A DNA stretch of 62,272 nt from a virus: positions 1-62,272 of IMG/VR virus record IMGVR_UViG_3300032309_002862, one strand, 5' to 3'. Both the position numbers and the translations under genes were made by a program. Positions within the stretch are counted from its first letter, which is position 1; every line of letters starts with the position of its first letter. The notes beneath the pieces were generated by a model that saw only the letters and a list, made by a program, of their open reading frames with translations, was not told the origin of the DNA and ran no database searches. Shown here piece by piece: positions 20,960-29,632 of this stretch.

Positions 20960-23900
20960 ATGGCACAAAAAATTAAAATCGACTATTCACAATTTAGAGC
21001 ATCGGGCGTTTACACCCTGGAATTTGACAGTTCCGCTAGTGTTATATTAACGTCTACCACTATAAGATTGGTAGTTGGATTCTCTAACAAGGGCCCATTC
21101 AACACACCGGTTTACATACCGGATGCATCTACAATGATCTCGATTTTTGGTGATATTGATAGATCACTAGAAAATAGAGGATCTTTCTTCCAAAGATCTA
21201 TACTAACCTGCTTGAATGCGGGACCAGTTTTTGCTTTAAATTTATTGAAGCTTAATGATGATTTAGACAGTGCTACTCCTGATGTTGTTGATTACAGATC
21301 TTATTCTGTTGACACTGAACAATTTAATGGTATTTTAACAAGTAAACTATACTCGTCTTTTTATAACAAAGAGAGATTTTGGTTTGCTTCAACTGAATAC
21401 TTCTTGGCCACATTGAGCTTACTAGATCAAGGAAGATTACTCAACCTTGTTAATCTTGGTCAACAGCCAATGAGTGTTATCATAAGAAAGTCCACTGACT
21501 CGACAACGCCAATAAAGGGATATAATATCTTCGCTATAGATTGGTATGGTGCTGATAATGTGCCTAGTTTTATGCACCCTTATGATTACATTCAGGATTA
21601 TTTCATTGATGTTATTGCAGTTTCTGGTAGTTGGACTAATTACCCGCAGCTTTCTGTGGATCCTCAATGGAGCCAATATTTTACAGCCAATGGATTTATT
21701 AAGAGTCAGATGGATAATTTCCTTAATAATCCTAATGTTCAGCTTCTTGTTTATCAAACAGGATGTATTATACCTGATTTTACCGATTTGAATGGAGTTA
21801 ATCAGTACATCCAAACGTTGGTTAATAGTGATACTGCTTCAACCGGTTTATTCTGTGCCGTAGACGAAAAGGCGTTTGATGATATTTGTAATAATGTTTA
21901 TAGGATAGATCTTGTAGGTAATAACCTTATCGACGAATTAACATCAGATAGAGACCTACTAAGCCCAAGACTTGATTTCTTAAGTTACGATCAAGCTTTA
22001 TTGGCTGATTATTTATACACTGAAGCAAATTACGGAGTTACTGGTGCATCCGGTGCAACTGGTGGTAATATGTACGTTGGTACTTTATTCGATCCGATCA
22101 CATTTGGAGCTACCGGTGGTACAACAGCCAAGGGTCTTTACGCAAATACATTCCAGGCTTACGATCCGAATTCATTTGATGGTGGATATCACTATATCAT
22201 TACAGGTACAGGTGGAGCACCTCCTTTAACGACATCTCAGAAATCTTCTCTTAAAACATTCTGTGATATTTCTTCTTCGGCTGATCAGAAATTTATTATA
22301 GGTAAAGCTACTATACCTGCTGGTGTAACGGGATCTGTTCCTTCAAGTTTCGGAGGTCCAAACACAACCCAACTAGTTAAGCTTAAGATAGCTTTAACTA
22401 AGACTTCTAATTCGGAAGTTAAAATTCTATGGCAACATCCGTTAGATACTGCTTTCTATAGATCTCAAGGTATTACAGTTGAGCCTTGGTCTTACCTGCA
22501 ACAAGTTCCTATTGATCCTGATATTGCATTTCTAAATTCCGGTGTTGGTGTATATCAATTTGGATGGGCCGATAGAGTAGGCGAGGAGTCTATATTAAAC
22601 CCAGACGGAGCAGGAGTAACAGGATCGGGATTCCCCAACGGATATTCTAACGCTTTGATAGCGTATTCTATGTCTAACCCTTATATTGATTTTCAATATA
22701 ACGAGACTGCAGATGGCGATATTATTTGGAAAAATTCAGACGGTACGGACATTCAATATCTGGATTACCAAAGCTTGGTTGATGTAGATGGATTTCCTTA
22801 TGTAGCGGTTAGATCTTTTAGTAATACTTCTAGAGATATTACTAGCCTAGAAAATATTGCTGCCTTTGGCGCTTCTTATGCCTCAGATAATGTGGGTCTC
22901 CCAGTTTCTGCAGATAAGATAGACATCATATCACAAAATGGAAACATAAACGAATACCTTAATGTTATAACTAGGGTAGATGCCACAACGTTTACTGTAG
23001 GTTTAGACGCCCTTGGTAACGTTCCTTTAGCAGTTGGCGATTGGATAGTTTCTACTGACCTTAATATATGTTTAGATGCTGCAGGGACAAGACAGTCTAG
23101 ACTAGGAAAGATCACTACGGTTTCTGCTACAACAACTAGCGGTGTCTACAGAGTAACTTGTGCTAGACCAGTACTTTATTACTCAGGAACACCTCTAAGA
23201 GTTCAGAAGTTCACATCGATTGAGGATTTCACTACATCGTTTGATTTCACATACTTCCAAGGTTTCACTATGACCGAAAGGCATAGACCAAATGGAACTG
23301 ATGCTAGATTAACTGAGATATTAGATGTACTTTACAATACAGATCTTGCTATAGCGCTTGCTAATAAGGACGCTATAACTTACAGATACATTATTGATAC
23401 ATTCGCTGGACAAATACTTCCTAATTCTAAGTATCAATTGAGTAAGTTGGCGATGATGAGACAGCAATCTCTTGCTATCATCAATGCGCCTTCTACTGCT
23501 CAATTCCAGGCTTCTACAGATCCTAGATTTACTGATGCACCTACAGCTACTAATCCTAAGCCTCTGTTAAACACTGCTTATATAGCTTCCGGAGGTAATC
23601 TATCCTTGAATCCTACATATACATTCAGTCTTCCTTCCGAAGCTGATGGAGCTAAATTCTGTGCATTCTACTCACCTTACATCACTATAAGGGAGTCAAA
23701 CAGAAACGTAAACGTTCCACCGGCAGCTTTAGTTTCTAATAATTTCATTAGAAAATTTGCGACAGGTGAGCCTTATGCAATAGTAGCAGGCCAAAAAAGA
23801 GGGGTTCTTTCAGGACAAACTATAGTAGGTGTTGAATATGATTATAGTGATGCAGACAGAGGAAATTTAGAGCCATTCGGGATAAATCCTATCATCAGAA

Positions 23901-24301
23901 GAAAAGGGATTGGTGTAGTTATATTCGGTAACGGAACTGCTTATCAACAAGTTAATTCTGCATTCAGCCTTGTTCACGTTAGAGATTTGCTCATCAGCAT
24001 TGAAACTGACACCAATCAAATTCTTTCTAACTATCTGTTTGACTTCAACGAGGATTCAATCAGACTTGAAATTAAGACTTTGGTTGATAATTACTTAGAC
24101 GGAGTAAGAGCAGGAGGTGGTATTTATGCTTATAAGACCATCATGGATGCTACTAACAATACACCAGCGATCATTGATATGAACATGGGGGTTATTGACA
24201 TCATCATCGAGCCTGCAAGAGGTATACAGAAATTCATAAACAGAATCACTGTAACCAGAACAGGCGGTATAGCTGCTGGCGGATTCATACAGTTTGTATA
24301 A
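20960..24301 (+). CDS. gp18: Contractile tail sheath protein (gp18-like), unusually long
   Basis: A 1113-residue protein, against 659 in T4. N-terminus: SGVYTLEFDSSAS and VVGFSNKGPFNTPVYI, typical of T4-like sheath handshake and domain I regions. The C-terminal core is also typical: HVRDLLISIETDTNQILSNY, YLFDFNEDSIRLEI and a closing strand FINRITVTRTGG. The extra length lies in the middle and includes Gly/Thr-rich loops (GVTGASGATGG near residue 360) and beta-rich stretches, probably an outward-facing added domain. It polymerises round the tube and contracts on infection. It is followed directly by two tube genes. Confidence 0.93.
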   Translation: MAQKIKIDYSQFRASGVYTLEFDSSASVILTSTTIRLVVGFSNKGPFNTPVYIPDASTMISIFGDIDRSLENRGSFFQRSILTCLNAGPVFALNLLKLNDDLDSATPDVVDYRSYSVDTEQFNGILTSKLYSSFYNKERFWFASTEYFLATLSLLDQGRLLNLVNLGQQPMSVIIRKSTDSTTPIKGYNIFAIDWYGADNVPSFMHPYDYIQDYFIDVIAVSGSWTNYPQLSVDPQWSQYFTANGFIKSQMDNFLNNPNVQLLVYQTGCIIPDFTDLNGVNQYIQTLVNSDTASTGLFCAVDEKAFDDICNNVYRIDLVGNNLIDELTSDRDLLSPRLDFLSYDQALLADYLYTEANYGVTGASGATGGNMYVGTLFDPITFGATGGTTAKGLYANTFQAYDPNSFDGGYHYIITGTGGAPPLTTSQKSSLKTFCDISSSADQKFIIGKATIPAGVTGSVPSSFGGPNTTQLVKLKIALTKTSNSEVKILWQHPLDTAFYRSQGITVEPWSYLQQVPIDPDIAFLNSGVGVYQFGWADRVGEESILNPDGAGVTGSGFPNGYSNALIAYSMSNPYIDFQYNETADGDIIWKNSDGTDIQYLDYQSLVDVDGFPYVAVRSFSNTSRDITSLENIAAFGASYASDNVGLPVSADKIDIISQNGNINEYLNVITRVDATTFTVGLDALGNVPLAVGDWIVSTDLNICLDAAGTRQSRLGKITTVSATTTSGVYRVTCARPVLYYSGTPLRVQKFTSIEDFTTSFDFTYFQGFTMTERHRPNGTDARLTEILDVLYNTDLAIALANKDAITYRYIIDTFAGQILPNSKYQLSKLAMMRQQSLAIINAPSTAQFQASTDPRFTDAPTATNPKPLLNTAYIASGGNLSLNPTYTFSLPSEADGAKFCAFYSPYITIRESNRNVNVPPAALVSNNFIRKFATGEPYAIVAGQKRGVLSGQTIVGVEYDYSDADRGNLEPFGINPIIRRKGIGVVIFGNGTAYQQVNSAFSLVHVRDLLISIETDTNQILSNYLFDFNEDSIRLEIKTLVDNYLDGVRAGGGIYAYKTIMDATNNTPAIIDMNMGVIDIIIEPARGIQKFINRITVTRTGGIAAGGFIQFV

Positions 24302-24341: not shown

Positions 24342-24896
24342 ATGGCAGGCTTACCACATTTTTCAAACTCGATCTCATCGATAAATAACTTTGAACCGGT
24401 TTACTTAAACCAGTTTGAGGTAGTAATAAATCCACCAGCTGCTGTAGCTGGTGGACCTATTCTTTTACAGCACGTAACGAAGGTTTCTGGTATGGATGTA
24501 GATAAAAATCCAGCTCCTGTAGCTCAGAAGTACAAGTTTGCAAAAAGAAACTACGCGGGAGCTAAACCAGATACTACTGGAATGACCGTTTCAATGAGCT
24601 TCACTGTGAACTTGAACGATGCTAATTCTATGTATGTTTTTAAAACACTAAGACAATGGACGGATCTTATCTATAATCCTCTAACCGGAGCAATGGGTGT
24701 TAAAAATGACTATGTAGGGTCAATAGTTATTTCAATCTTTAATAAAAACGGTGACGTTTTTAAAAGAGTAGTTTGTAAAGACTGTTTCCCGCTTAGCGCA
24801 ATTTCGCCAATGAACATAAGTTATGCAGCAGAAGAGGTTTGGAAGATAGACAATATGGAATGGGCAGTTGATTATTGGGAAGATCTATTCCTATAA
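24342..24896 (+). CDS. gp19: Tail tube protein, copy 1 (gp19-like)
   Basis: A 184-residue tube protein (T4 gp19 is 163). It has the family layout: FEPVYLNQFEVVI at the N-terminus, KVSGMDVDKNP, KYKFAKRNYAG, the conserved LRQWTDLIYNPLTGAMG, and DYVGSIVISIFNKNGDVFKR near the C-terminus, ending in DYWEDLFL. It forms hexameric rings stacked inside the sheath. The next gene is a clear paralogue. The 40-base gap after the sheath contains GATAAATAGT, only 6 bases before the ATG, probably too close to be a promoter. Confidence 0.93.
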   Translation: MAGLPHFSNSISSINNFEPVYLNQFEVVINPPAAVAGGPILLQHVTKVSGMDVDKNPAPVAQKYKFAKRNYAGAKPDTTGMTVSMSFTVNLNDANSMYVFKTLRQWTDLIYNPLTGAMGVKNDYVGSIVISIFNKNGDVFKRVVCKDCFPLSAISPMNISYAAEEVWKIDNMEWAVDYWEDLFL

Positions 24897-24912: not shown

Positions 24913-25488
24913 ATGTCAGGATTACCACACTATACTAATTCTCAAGCTGCTATACAGCTTTACGAACCAGTTTATCTTAACCAGTTCGAGGTTATTATTA
25001 ATACTCCAGCGGGTGTTCAGCAGTTACCTGGTTTAAATGGAGAATTGATACTGACACAGCAGGTTAAGGCTATATCAGGTATGACCGTTGATATACAGCC
25101 AGCTGGACCAGTTGAGCAATTCTATAAGTTCGCTACTAGAAGATATGCAGGTGGTGAACCTTCTCAGACCGACATGGATTTAACCATGGAATTTGAGGTT
25201 AACCTTAACGAATCCAATTCGATGACGGTGTACAGGACTCTTAGACAATGGTCGGATCTTATCTATAACCCATTGACTGGTGCTATGGGACTTAAGCGTG
25301 ATTATGTTGGATCTATGGTTATATCTATATTCAATAAGCAGGGTGATGTTTTTAGAAGAATAAGAATACCTGTTTGCTTTATAAGTACGCCAATACCAGC
25401 TTTGGAGCTAGATTATGACCAAGGAGCTAATATCTATAGTATCAGTATTTCTTGGAAATGTGATTACTGGGAAGATCTTTTCTTGTAA
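24913..25488 (+). CDS. gp19: Tail tube protein, copy 2 (gp19-like paralogue)
   Basis: A 191-residue paralogue of the preceding gene, aligned along its whole length: SGLPHYTNS versus AGLPHFSNS, FEPVYLNQFEVVI versus YEPVYLNQFEVII, LRQWSDLIYNPLTGAMGLK, DYVGSMVISIFNKQGDVFRR, and the same DYWEDLFL end. It differs mainly in a short insertion near residue 40 and in the last third. Either the tube is built from two subunit types, or one copy forms a special ring at the tube end (tail terminator or baseplate side). A strong terminator follows, so the unit sheath-tube-tube ends here. Confidence 0.92.
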   Translation: MSGLPHYTNSQAAIQLYEPVYLNQFEVIINTPAGVQQLPGLNGELILTQQVKAISGMTVDIQPAGPVEQFYKFATRRYAGGEPSQTDMDLTMEFEVNLNESNSMTVYRTLRQWSDLIYNPLTGAMGLKRDYVGSMVISIFNKQGDVFRRIRIPVCFISTPIPALELDYDQGANIYSISISWKCDYWEDLFL

Positions 25489-25577: not shown

Positions 25578-26717
25578 ATGAAGAATTTATCGCCCGAGGA
25601 AATCCTCAGAAATAAAGAAGCAGCTAGTGGATTCGTCTATGACGATCCTAAAGATGAAGTAACTGTAACAAATACCGAGAATCCGGTTACACTAAACGAG
25701 AATCCGGTTACCCTAAGTGAAAATGCTTACGCCTCGCAGGAACCATCTCCTCCTAAAGCACCTATTGAGGAGCAGCCTGTTCAGAACCCCCCTAATTCGT
25801 TAGGCAGGGTCGAAAGAAAGCATCCTTACTTTCAACAGGAAGCTCAATCTACTCAGCCCCATAATAGTGCTCAAAAACAGCCTGGTGAGTTAGGCTGGAA
25901 GAATATACCAATGGGCATACTTCCATCAAAGGGTATGTACTACCCAGATGGCACTAGAATAGCTATTAGAGCTGCGGAGGTAAAGGAAATCAGACATTTC
26001 TCAACGATAGACGATGAGGATAGAATAGACATAGAGGAAAAATTAGGCTATATCCTAGATAAGTGTATGAGAATGGATTTTCCGACACAGGGTATAGTTT
26101 CTTATCAAGACCTAAAATCCGAGGATAGATTTTTCATAACATTAGCAATAAGAGATCTAACTTTTACTAGAGGTGAGAATAGTGTAATATTGATTCCTAA
26201 TAATCCCTGTGAATCTAAGGAATGCCCGGTAAGGGAAGGATTTGAACTTAGAACCGGTGTTTTGTCGATGTATGAAATTGAAGATAAAATACTGGAATAT
26301 TATGACAGCGAAAGAAGATGTTTTTCTTTTGATATAAAGAAGCTGGATAAAAATATTAAGATGTTTGTTCCTAGTATAGGAGTTACTAAAAGAATATCAG
26401 ATTTTATAATATCCCTTGCCAAGAGAGGCGTTGAAATAGATGATGCTTTTGTACAGATATCCCCTTTCATATTTGAGGATTGGAGAACTCTAACTGAAGG
26501 GTCATTTCAGGCAAGATTAAAAGACAGTGATTCCTGGTCAAAAGAGGAATTCAGCTTACTGTTTGAATTATCTGAAAAAATAAAAATAGGTACAAAGTCC
26601 AAGGCATTGGTAAAGTGCCCTAAGTGCGGTGGAAGGGAGGTCACCGCCGACATTACCTTTCCCAAAGGGCTTAGATCCCTTTTCGTTATTTCAGATATCA
26701 TTGGAGAACTTCTTTGA
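25578..26717 (+). CDS. Tail assembly chaperone or baseplate hub assembly protein (gp26-like), zero frame of a probable frameshift pair
   Basis: A 379-residue protein. Residues 1-110 are low-complexity (a repeat ENPVTL, then Pro/Gln-rich). A folded domain starts at WKNIPMGILPSKGMYYPDG and continues with a repeated acidic-aromatic helical region; near the C-terminus is a zinc-ribbon half, CPKCGG. T4-type phages carry gp26-family baseplate proteins that end in a CPxCG ribbon, and tail genes between tube and tape measure commonly encode chaperones made in two forms by frameshifting. The zero frame stops at TGA 26715-26717, 15 codons after the slippery run at 26658; an 86-codon frame continues. 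I infer that this gene and the next frame make a short and a long product. Confidence 0.6.
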   Translation: MKNLSPEEILRNKEAASGFVYDDPKDEVTVTNTENPVTLNENPVTLSENAYASQEPSPPKAPIEEQPVQNPPNSLGRVERKHPYFQQEAQSTQPHNSAQKQPGELGWKNIPMGILPSKGMYYPDGTRIAIRAAEVKEIRHFSTIDDEDRIDIEEKLGYILDKCMRMDFPTQGIVSYQDLKSEDRFFITLAIRDLTFTRGENSVILIPNNPCESKECPVREGFELRTGVLSMYEIEDKILEYYDSERRCFSFDIKKLDKNIKMFVPSIGVTKRISDFIISLAKRGVEIDDAFVQISPFIFEDWRTLTEGSFQARLKDSDSWSKEEFSLLFELSEKIKIGTKSKALVKCPKCGGREVTADITFPKGLRSLFVISDIIGELL

Positions 26718-26889
26718 TCTGAAGTTTAGACTATGGAAGGAGCACGGTCTTGATCCTGAATGGGTAGAGAGAATACCTTATTATGAATACCAGATATGGA
26801 TAGATAAGCTTAATCTCGCTATCGATGTTGATAATCAAGAGGTACTTGCAGATTCAGGAAAGAGCACAGTTTTCTCTTTTAGGAAGTAA
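26614..26889 (+). CDS. +1-frame extension of the tail chaperone gene (frameshift product C-terminus)
   Basis: This frame opens after a TAA at 26611 and runs to a TAA at 26887-26889. Its protein from the shift point reads FPKGLDPFSLFQISLENFF, then KFRLWKEHGLDPEW and YYEYQIWIDKLN, well-formed helical protein of the kind seen in tail chaperone extensions. An internal GTG at 26629 could in theory start it alone, but then its first residues would overlap the zinc-ribbon code, and no ribosome-binding signal is seen. Joined by a +1 shift at 26658-26672 it would give a product of about 436 residues. A single-gene sequencing or natural frameshift error is the alternative. Confidence 0.6.
   Translation, partial: SALSAVEGRSPPTLPFPKGLDPFSLFQISLENFFDLKFRLWKEHGLDPEWVERIPYYEYQIWIDKLNLAIDVDNQEVLADSGKSTVFSFRK
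26658..26672 (+). other. Candidate +1 ribosomal frameshift site TTTCCCAAAGGGCTT
   Basis: Zero-frame codons TTT-CCC-AAA-GGG-CTT read F-P-K-G-L; the +1 frame TTC-CCA-AAG-GGC-TTA reads the same five residues. Every tRNA in the run could therefore re-pair one base downstream with few mismatches. It lies inside the only overlap where both frames are open (26614-26714). Confidence 0.6.
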
Positions 26890-26931: not shown

Positions 26932-28389
26932 ATGTCATCTACCGAAAGTGAAAAACAGTTCATTGACCTATCGAGAAGTTTAGAGGGTCTCGTTGGTGAA
27001 TTGAAAAAAATGAACATATCGTCTATCAAGGAAGATATTAAGAAACAGGGTGATGTTATAGAGAGATCACTCGGTAATGTAAAGGGTAGCTTTAGGAGAG
27101 GTGGTAAAACTAAGGATGATGGAAACTATTTAGTTGGTGAGAATGGGCCAGAAGTGGTTTCGCTTCCTACCGGATCCTCAATAATACCTTTAGATGTTTC
27201 AGATTTAATAGAGGGATTAAAAAATGTTTCTAAGCTCAAGGACGATCTCGATGATAAGACTTTAAACTATGACAAGGATAAGGGTGTTGTAGTTACACCA
27301 GCAGGCGATTTTGATATTGGCTTTCTAAAAAGCCAGATCGAAAAGCAAATAGCTGAGGATGCTGCTATGGATGTTTCCGATGGTGGTAAAAGTGCAGAAG
27401 CTGTAGTTGCTCTTGAAAAATTACAGGATAAGATAAAAAATGCTAAACCTGAAAGCAAAGAGGGAAGCATGGATGAAAAAATTGGTAAATCAGCGGGCCC
27501 GAGTGCAGAGGAAATAAAAGCGGAGAGAGAAAGATTATTAGCGGAAGACTATGAATTCTATACCGAATATCCTAAAAGCCTACAGGATGATCTAGATTCT
27601 TATATAAGTAGTTACAATTCTGGACCTGGCTCTTCCCTTAATAAAACTGCGGAACCAGAATTAACTGAGAAGGAAAAGCCTAATTCTAAAGAGGAAAGAG
27701 AGGGAAAGGAAAGGGATAATTCAAAAGAGGAAAGCACAGAGAAGACCTCAAAAAAGAAAAATAAAAAAGAAAAAAAAGAAAAAGAGGGGACTGGAGAAGG
27801 TCTATTTTCTAAAGGAAAGTCAACCGAGCGTAAGGAGAATAAAAGTGGTAGTGCTATAAGTACAGGTCTTTCCATTCTTGAAAAAAAATCAGGGCTAACA
27901 GATAAAGCTGTTAACTTGGGATCCAAATTTGGTATATCTGGCGATAAAACCGAAAAGTTAATCAACACGGCTAATCAGAAAGCTGTAAGTAAAGTTCAGG
28001 ATTTGGGTAAAAAATCACCTAAGGAAAATACGGATAAAGAAGATACCAAAAGTAAAGCAGTAAACGAGAAGCCTGAATTGAATCCACCACCTAAGCCAGC
28101 ACCACCACCCGAACCCAAGCCTGCTCCAGCCGCAGCCCCTGCCCCGGAGAAGAGCAAATCAGCAAATCCGGAGGCTAGCTCAAAATCAGAAACTACTGAG
28201 ACACCTAGCAAATCAGGGACATCTGAGCCCTCGTCTAGTGGAGCTTCTAATTCTTCCTCTGGTGCATCTCTGTCTAACGAGGATGCTAAAGACATTAAAA
28301 GCCTTCTTAGTAAGATAGCAAATACGCTAGCTGGACCACTAAATATTAGTTCACCTGATCCTTTTAGACCAGATTCTAGAAGAATTTAA
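26932..28389 (+). CDS. Tail-associated low-complexity protein with a tape-measure-type motif
   Basis: A 485-residue protein. The helical N-terminus (LSRSLEGLVGELKKM) is followed near residues 64-86 by YLVGENGPEVVSLPTGSSII, which matches a motif typically found near the C-terminus of tape measure and related tail proteins (VGE.GPE.V.LP.GS.VIP). The rest is mostly low-complexity: Lys/Glu/Ser-rich from about 225 to 310 and Pro/Ala-rich from about 383 to 405 (PPPKPAPPPEPKPAPAAAPA), then Ser-rich. It sits right after the tail chaperone pair, where a tape measure is expected. Its length would fit a tail shorter than T4's, but the central disorder makes me cautious: tape measure or a tail-tip accessory protein. 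Confidence 0.45.
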   Translation: MSSTESEKQFIDLSRSLEGLVGELKKMNISSIKEDIKKQGDVIERSLGNVKGSFRRGGKTKDDGNYLVGENGPEVVSLPTGSSIIPLDVSDLIEGLKNVSKLKDDLDDKTLNYDKDKGVVVTPAGDFDIGFLKSQIEKQIAEDAAMDVSDGGKSAEAVVALEKLQDKIKNAKPESKEGSMDEKIGKSAGPSAEEIKAERERLLAEDYEFYTEYPKSLQDDLDSYISSYNSGPGSSLNKTAEPELTEKEKPNSKEEREGKERDNSKEESTEKTSKKKNKKEKKEKEGTGEGLFSKGKSTERKENKSGSAISTGLSILEKKSGLTDKAVNLGSKFGISGDKTEKLINTANQKAVSKVQDLGKKSPKENTDKEDTKSKAVNEKPELNPPPKPAPPPEPKPAPAAAPAPEKSKSANPEASSKSETTETPSKSGTSEPSSSGASNSSSGASLSNEDAKDIKSLLSKIANTLAGPLNISSPDPFRPDSRRI

Positions 28390-28448: not shown

Positions 28449-28997
28449 ATGCCTATGTCAGAAAAGATACTCTTTAAAGATCTATCTTTCATAAATGAAG
28501 AATTTATAGAAAAAAACATCTCCTGGAGAGTTATACCACAGCCAGATTCAACGTATTTACTTTTAACTGGTGATAACTTATATTTAAACGAAAAAGAGGA
28601 GAGAATGGATTCCGTGTATCTTGAGATGGCTGAATCCTGGGGAAAGAATTCCCATTGTAAAAGAGCACAGGTTGGATGTTTAATGGTTAAAAATAAGTCT
28701 ATTATATCGGATGGGTATAACGGATCACCAACGGGATTTCCTAATGTATGCGAGGATGAGAAAGGTGATACCCTATCATGGGTTTTGCATGCGGAGGCAA
28801 ATGCTATAACAAAGTTAGCTAAGAGCACTCAGAGCTCCGATGGCTCTACTATTTACGTAACTCTTTCCCCTTGTTTCGAATGCTCAAAACTAATCATTCA
28901 ATCCGCTATAAAAAGAGTAGTTTTTACCGAGCTATATAGGAAGCATGATTCATTGTCCTTTCTTTTAAGAGGCGGGATTGAATTAATGAAATTATAA
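28449..28997 (+). CDS. cd: Deoxycytidylate (dCMP) deaminase
   Basis: A 182-residue zinc deaminase that would convert dCMP to dUMP and so feed dTTP synthesis. The zinc and catalytic motifs are present: HAEAN near residue 114 and PCFEC near 141-145. YNGSPTGFPNVC is the typical dCMP deaminase loop after the first strand (RAQVGCLMV). An N-terminal extension of about 50 residues precedes the deaminase core, which starts at MDSVYLEMAESWGKNSHC. T4 encodes the same enzyme (cd). The gene begins a new unit after the tail genes, with a possible host-type promoter, consistent with earlier expression than virion genes. Confidence 0.92.
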   Translation: MPMSEKILFKDLSFINEEFIEKNISWRVIPQPDSTYLLLTGDNLYLNEKEERMDSVYLEMAESWGKNSHCKRAQVGCLMVKNKSIISDGYNGSPTGFPNVCEDEKGDTLSWVLHAEANAITKLAKSTQSSDGSTIYVTLSPCFECSKLIIQSAIKRVVFTELYRKHDSLSFLLRGGIELMKL

Positions 28998-29017: not shown

Positions 29018-29632
29018 ATGATAGAACAGAAAGAGAAGGCTGAGAAAAACATCCAAAAACTTGCAGGAAATTTCCTATTCGAGAAGAACGAGAAATCATT
29101 CAAAGAACTTTTTGAGAGATTGAGACCAGGTGTATTGAATCACTGCTACGTTATTCTAAAAGACAGGGAATTAGCGGAGGATGCTTTCATCAACACAATG
29201 ACCAAGATCTGGACTAAAATAGATCAATATGATGATGAGAGAGGTAATTTCTCTACGTGGTGTTATAATATTGCACGTAACGAGAGCTTGTTGCTAATTA
29301 AATCTAGAAACAAATACGTTTCACAGAATGAAAAGGAATTAGATTTCCATTCAATTAAGCACGATTCAATCATGGGCGAGCATTATGTTCTAGAAAATTC
29401 AATTGATTATGCTTTTTTCAACGAAGAGAACACTGTTGATGCCGTATATGAGGCGGTCATAGACGAAATAAGGACATTACCTGAACTCTACCGAGACATT
29501 ATGGTAGACCGAGAGATAAATGGTATGAAATACAAGGACATAGCGATCAAATATGGTATCAAGAAAAGATCCATAGCTACGAGAATAAGAAGAGCAAGAG
29601 CTAAGATCAAGAAAAAAATGGGGAAACCTTAA
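29018..29632 (+). CDS. Sigma-70 family (ECF-like) RNA polymerase sigma factor
   Basis: A 204-residue sigma factor with region 2 and region 4 only, the ECF layout. Region 2: LFERLRPGVLNHCYVIL, then RELAEDAFINTMTKIWTKI and GNFSTWCYNIARNESLLLI. Region 4 is near the C-terminus: LPELYRDIMVDREINGMKYK, then the helix-turn-helix YKDIAIKYGIKKRSIATRIRRAR. The style is like Bacteroidota ECF factors, suggesting acquisition from a host. It would redirect host RNA polymerase to some phage genes. The window also encodes a gp55-type late sigma, so two classes of phage promoter can be expected. Confidence 0.9.
   Translation: MIEQKEKAEKNIQKLAGNFLFEKNEKSFKELFERLRPGVLNHCYVILKDRELAEDAFINTMTKIWTKIDQYDDERGNFSTWCYNIARNESLLLIKSRNKYVSQNEKELDFHSIKHDSIMGEHYVLENSIDYAFFNEENTVDAVYEAVIDEIRTLPELYRDIMVDREINGMKYKDIAIKYGIKKRSIATRIRRARAKIKKKMGKP

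Follow-up and report, generated by a model that had tools for sequence, protein, structure and literature searches.

The window, by which is meant here the entire stretch of 62,272 nucleotides of viral DNA that was analysed, contains among its tail genes a plus-strand gene whose 3' end is open in two reading frames. The zero frame extends from 25578 to 26717, with its stop codon at 26715-26717, and encodes a protein of 379 residues, referred to below as the short form, which matches PHROG 36717, a family of unknown function. The +1 frame is open from 26614 to 26886 and closes with a stop at 26887-26889, and both frames are open together over 26614-26714. At 26658-26672 lies a run of homotriplets, TTTCCCAAAGGGCTT, which is read as TTT CCC AAA GGG CTT in the zero frame and as TTC CCA AAG GGC TTA in the +1 frame and gives the peptide FPKGL in both. 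On these points a re-reading of the sequence agrees with an earlier note on this DNA, which had proposed a programmed +1 frameshift at the run. Under codon shuffling, 1.7 runs of at least four homotriplet codons are expected per window, and a second one is present at 2359; a run that comprises all four bases is rare (0.03 expected per window). Passage of a ribosome into the +1 frame at the start of the run would add the region 26659-26889 (plus strand), which encodes a conserved FSLFQ...PYYEYQ peptide, as the C-terminus of a long form of 436 residues, with ...ADITFPKGLDPFSLFQ... as the predicted junction peptide of the window's long form.

Upstream of this gene lies a tail-tube gene (24913-25485; PHROG 45, 4542 and 3629, tail tube). 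The earlier note had placed the frameshift gene between the tail tube and the next tail protein, of which the first part stands; the next gene, at 26932-28389, has no family match and could not be named as a tape measure. Tail-tube-like genes occur here in tandem (24342-24896 and 24913-25488), each matching PHROG 32623, and the tail sheath gene (20960-24301) is very long, with 1113 residues and its best PHROG sheath matches in residues 740-1102. Also near the tail genes are a gene for a sigma-70-family factor (29018-29632; Sigma70_r2 and r4_2 over the cut-off) and, adjoining it, one for a dCMP deaminase (28449-28997).

Conservation of the frame overlap

Searching with the zero-frame protein (tblastn) detected relatives in 28 named phage records, among them Lak phages of Prevotella, phages of Chryseobacterium, Flavobacterium, Tenacibaculum and Sphingomonas, and uncultured records of 462-735 kb. 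Regions were fetched from 11 of these 28 records, and further loci came from IMG/VR scans, two of which supplied the best 80 of 229 and the best 80 of 130; several contigs entered twice among the IMG/VR loci. Altogether 197 sequences, made up of the window and 196 loci, were examined, and the four without a zero-frame stop inside the fetched DNA were left out; among the remaining 193, 91 tails (90 nt) and 125 longer stretches (660 nt) are distinct. Without exception (193/193), the zero frame ends at the equivalent place and the +1 frame overlaps it by 62-197 nt, and a distant relative outside this set (L212) has the same overlap. In one Lak phage (L003) the +1 frame runs into a TAG, and it continues in the Lak-like L210 when TAG is read as glutamine, a result for L210 only, L211 needing the same reading. 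A scan with L008 as query returned no relative. As judged from these sequences, the arrangement is common to many related giant phages, mostly of Bacteroidota. The reading of the two frames as an indel or a sequencing error, for which only the split frames themselves speak, has next to no probability and is already refuted by the relatives, since the overlap recurs in every one of the 193 readable loci (91 distinct tails); a relative with a single uninterrupted frame, which the earlier note had named as the observation that would overturn its proposal, was found at none of the 193 loci.

Onset of dual coding and the proposed slip site

Within the homotriplet run, conservation is confined to one end. 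The complete run occurs in 3 of the 91 distinct tails; the AAA codon of the window varies freely in relatives (AGC, AAA, AAC, GGC, GGA, TAC, TCC, CAA, GAC and others), the GGG codon is GGA in the second clade, and only the TTT-C(CC) at the 5' end is kept. The idea that the run is a selected signal, and that a peptide equal in two frames looks selected rather than accidental, had to be given up: on the evidence of the tails, FPKGL in both frames is an accident of the window's subclade. What does recur is TTT followed by C, in 90 of the 91 distinct tails (26658-26661, plus strand, in the window), extended to TTTCCC in 83. The lone exception is L011 (TAC CCC ATC); L008 belongs to the 90 through a TTT-C ten codons downstream, its usual place being occupied by CTG GAA.

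The position at which the second frame begins to be used is indicated by codon alignments of 53 distinct sequences of the clade that includes the window (clade W) and 58 of a second one (clade G); sequences within a clade are related, and the counts for W and G are hence not independent. Along the gene, synonymous differences amount to 0.77-1.19 of expectation and then drop in two blocks, separated by four to five free codons. The first block reads TGC GGT .. NNG GAG GTC ACC in W and GGT GAG GAG GTC CAC in G. The second starts with TTT (53/53 W, 58/58 G) and CCC (53/53, 58/58) and ends at the zero-frame stop (26658-26717, plus strand, in the window); from TTT on, their level sinks from roughly 1.0 of expectation to 0.18 in W and 0.07-0.23 in G, and past the zero-frame stop synonymous change in the +1 frame is at once normal again. 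This suppression between TTT and the zero-frame stop, followed by normal change, indicates that dual coding starts at TTT. Together with the frame overlap in all 193 sequences, it supports the proposal that a gene resembling tail chaperone genes undergoes programmed +1 frameshifting. Furthermore, the last upstream +1 stop lies one codon before TTC in 17 of 104 distinct sequences, and the shift can therefore not occur much earlier. The onset of the freezing, the invariant TTT and the ability of tRNA-Phe to re-pair with UUC together make UUU_C the best candidate site: a conserved TTT-C at which the P-site tRNA could re-pair, with L011 and, by place, L008 as exceptions.

The nearest rival is a slip on the following codon, in which tRNA-Pro on a rare proline codon in the P site would move from CCC to CCN, as in Listeria phage PSA, which shifts +1 at CCC (PMC5009743). 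It would give an identical peptide, CCC makes up only 9.4% of the window's proline codons, and TTTCCC is present in 83 of the 91 tails. However, it leaves unexplained why the preceding codon is TTT and never TTC (53/53, 58/58); the conservation of CCC is accounted for by the coding of proline in the +1 frame, and TTT-C occurs without CCC in L002, L193 and Lak phages (CAA), in L195 and L197 (CCT) and in L009 (CGA). We consider the CCC slip unlikely. Still less credit is due to a later slip at CTT TTC, either from CUU to UUU as in prfB or as a two-tRNA -2 slip: CTT TTC is found in 40 of the 91 tails and the +1 peptide is conserved best from FSLFQ on, but 44 tails have ATT TTC and L195 and L197 have TTA TTC, which, judged from the codons, cannot re-pair in this way, and the freezing sets in at TTT, seven codons ahead of CTT TTC. 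A -2 slip at TTT CCC was rejected by inspection of the codons, as neither tRNA could re-pair.

The hairpin upstream of the proposed slip site

The other frozen block, that upstream of TTT, was missed by the earlier note and is, on comparative evidence, a covarying RNA hairpin with a Shine-Dalgarno (SD)-like loop. In the window it occupies 26626-26647 on the plus strand, with the 5' arm at 26626-26632, the loop at 26633-26640 (AAGGGAGG) and the 3' arm at 26641-26647, which form seven pairs closed by a G-U pair. The loop ends in GGAGG (26636-26640), complementary to the anti-SD core of 16S rRNA and 17 nt away from TTT; the GAG at this place is present in 53/53 sequences of W and 58/58 of G. The hairpin of clade W, GCGGTGA[TATGGAGG]TCACCGC, has the stem variants GCGGAG..CTCCGC (L064, L078) and TGCAGT..ACTGCA (L111), and that of clade G, GTGTGG[TGAGGAGGT]CCACAC, the variant GTGCGG..CCGCAC. 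The 5' arms thus differ between the clades; the base of the stem lies 10 nt before TTT, and GGAG(G) lies within the loop, in both.

Standard pairs fill 98.9% of the stem cells in W and 98.7% in G, compared with 18-65% in slid structures used as control. The covariation score is 0.182 in W (shuffled, 0.137 +- 0.007) and 0.105 in G (shuffled, 0.078 +- 0.006), and in neither clade does any of 500 shuffles reach the observed value, although related sequences can exceed shuffles. Double-changed pairs are few (two in W, one in G), and by this measure alone G is not above the shuffles (345 of 500). In an amino-acid-preserving test, the stability of each hairpin was compared with that of 400 synonymous variants, a pass meaning that at most 5% were as stable. 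This test was passed by 59 of 82 sequences of W, G and l26 (a subgroup counted with W in the other tallies) and by 63 of 92 overall, as against 4/86, 9/83, 6/91, 4/97 and 2/93 at five sites of the same gene taken as controls. Within clade G, 29 of 47 sequences pass; L003, L004, L005, L007, L009, L193 and L198 fail, and several individual hairpins have weak folding z-scores. On the 3' side, where a pseudoknot was considered, RNAalifold brought up small pairs that do not covary, and past the zero-frame stop synonymous change is normal, so that no 3' element is proposed. A short CCC-NNN-GGG pairing in W can be explained equally well by coding.

The GGAGG might suggest a ribosome binding site for a separate gene in the +1 frame with a start of its own. 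Possible start codons upstream of the conserved block do exist in that frame in many of the 104 distinct sequences (GTG or TTG only in 69, ATG in 13), and annotators of four named phages have treated the extension as a gene of its own. This reading is nevertheless very improbable: 22 of the 104 lack any ATG, GTG or TTG in that frame ahead of the conserved block, dual coding begins at TTT, which is no start codon, and the genes of the window do not use SD sequences for their starts, with SD cores before only 4 of 47 gene starts, rarer than in random 17-mers (14.7%). A start within the gene, at the I/M codon that follows the hairpin, was discarded as well, this codon being ATT, ATC, ATA or CTT in W and ATG only in G.

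A +1 frameshift at UUU_C, stimulated by the 5' hairpin and yielding a short and a long tail assembly chaperone, is the reading that we regard as quite probable. The two conserved frames, the site at which dual coding sets in and the hairpin are observed; the slip mechanism, the role of the hairpin, the ratio of short to long form and the chaperone function are what we infer. Two proteins with a common N-terminus would be made from the gene. The majority of ribosomes would stay in the zero frame and stop at 26717, producing the short form, and a fraction would slip one base forward at 26658-26661, where the peptidyl-tRNA-Phe in the P site would re-pair from UUU to UUC with the slow CCC codon waiting in the A site. 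Reading in the +1 frame to 26889 would then furnish the long form with its extra helical domain. The hairpin, its base 10 nt upstream, would re-form at the mRNA exit of the ribosome and is the probable stimulator: its zippering may pull the mRNA backwards and so move the ribosome forward, and/or the GGAG(G) loop may pair with the anti-SD of 16S rRNA. According to PMC5009743, SD-stimulated +1 shifting has 3 nt between SD and slip codon and -1 shifting 9-14 nt, and the 17-nt spacing fits neither geometry; the same source states that 5' mRNA structure 'perhaps' stimulates +1 frameshifting. In Bacteroidia the anti-SD is described as occluded (PMC8710568), and the frozen GGAG loop deserves attention because the genes of the window, as in Bacteroidia, do not use SD sequences for their starts. 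The loop may pair with an anti-SD that has been freed, or bind something else. A phage-borne bS21 was rejected as a general partner, its gene being present in 2 of 20 records (L199, L200) and absent from the window. The chances seem evenly balanced that the conserved hairpin, its base 10 nt ahead of the P-site codon at the mRNA exit and its GGAG(G) loop complementary to the anti-SD, is the main +1 motor at UUU_C, naturally selected, acting without a 3' element and shared by a large group of phages in whose hosts the anti-SD is normally occluded.

Protein identity and known systems

Relatives of the window protein match PHROG 150 and 634 (11 and 16 of 61 rows), which T4 gp26 and gp51, run against the same library, identify as the gp26 and gp51 types. 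PF12322 (T4_baseplate) matches the relative from phage PAU with 33.9 bits against a curated cut-off of 24.5 and, at E up to 1, 6 of 15 members of A1; it does not match the window protein itself. Neither hmmsearch with T4 gp26 and gp51 nor hhalign against these single sequences gave anything significant. The AlphaFold2 model of the long form is confident overall (pLDDT 80, pTM 0.78), with a low-confidence junction at residues 362-365 and helices over 375-426. Below its own relatives, its viral fold matches consist mainly of baseplate hub proteins of the T4 type and of phage proteins without a name (ranks 7-21, E 9.6e-10 to 1.2e-4), which support the assignment to the gp26/gp51 family; a PDB fold search with the model found nothing significant. 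The earlier note's name of tail chaperone is plausible, with support that comes through the relatives. The protein resembles gp26 (short) and gp51 (long) of T4, probably a chaperone pair for the tail tape measure, and the window would belong with them by way of its relatives. T4 gp26 ends after its Cys motif, as the short form does, and gp51, like the long form, has additional sequence at the C-terminus; both T4 proteins match PF12322. The short form would accordingly be the counterpart of gp26 and the long form that of gp51; in T4, however, these are two separate genes on opposite strands, not one frameshifted gene as here. A T4 gp26, at 98.6% identity, is carried by MG010123.1, a record labelled Staphylococcus phage SAJK-IND and probably mislabelled.

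G/GT-type tail assembly chaperones bind the tape measure and the tube protein and are absent from virions. The corresponding gene arrangement is found here in part: the tube gene lies upstream and the C-terminal extension is present, and no family match was obtained for the gene downstream (26932-28389). In lambda G/GT, as described in PMC5009743, a frameshift towards the end of the first ORF lets a single gene close to the tail tube give two chaperones, one short and one long, as is proposed here; but lambda shifts -1, whereas a +1 shift, a 5' hairpin and a T4 gp26/gp51-like protein are proposed here. A very likely +1 shift in a myovirus tail chaperone is reported for HSTV-2, which differs in being an archaeal virus and for which the part of PMC5009743 available names no hairpin. 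In PSA, too, +1 shifting takes place in a structural module and involves a rare CCC codon. There, in capsid and tail shaft genes, CCC occupies the P site and is followed by a stop or a 3' pseudoknot (same source); here the proposed site is TTT_C, with a 5' hairpin and no 3' element seen. In prfB, too, a P-site tRNA slips +1 downstream of an SD-like element, yet the SD is 3 nt away and a stop codon occupies the A site (PMC8710568, PMC12421855). A prfB-type SD-driven shift was not found at the present locus, where GGAGG lies in a hairpin loop 17 nt from TTT and the A site holds a sense codon, CCC. Hairpins 5' of the site and thought to move the ribosome forward are described for T4 gene 60 and SARS-CoV; according to PMC5009743, the former stem-loop acts at the mRNA exit and pulls the mRNA in bypassing, and the latter favours +1 shifting only in synthetic constructs. 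In contrast, the covarying hairpin described here lies at about the same place upstream of a natural +1 site.

Phages of the T4 type were also inspected. Three of the four fetched have a gp51-like ORF that lies in the -1 frame relative to gp26 and overlaps it, the overlap containing T_TTT_TTC or T_TTT_TTG (P-SSM7, L206, 1845-2069; V09, L207, 1929-2141; RL2RES, L209, 1809-2030). From the sequences, this overlap is likely a -1 frameshift; cyanophage and vibriophage gp51 have been taken as shortened (Sullivan et al. 2010, PMC3037559). No gene annotated gp26 was found in three stretches of S-PM2 and one of KVP40, and a fourth S-PM2 stretch contains one gene annotated as tail assembly chaperone.

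In a literature search made mostly without full texts and covering few subscription journals, neither this frameshift nor a natural hairpin on the 5' side of a phage +1 site was found to have been described before. The large natural alignment, with clades that have different stems at one spacing, provides material for testing a 5' hairpin as +1 motor, in phages related to those infecting Bacteroidota, a host group in which the anti-SD is believed to be kept from pairing. Annotation can also be corrected: the +1 extension, annotated as a separate hypothetical gene in MA9V-2 (L008, 3902-4078), MaF61 (L009, 3866-4036), pT24 (L010, 3899-4120) and PAU (L012, 3899-4036), would be the C-terminus of the long form and no separate gene. 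Finally, the tail frameshift has been described as widely conserved 'except T4' (PMC5009743). The present findings suggest where T4 belongs, with gp26 and gp51 as the short and long forms, made by a +1 shift in the phages described here, perhaps by a -1 shift in cyanophages and vibriophages, and from two genes in T4.
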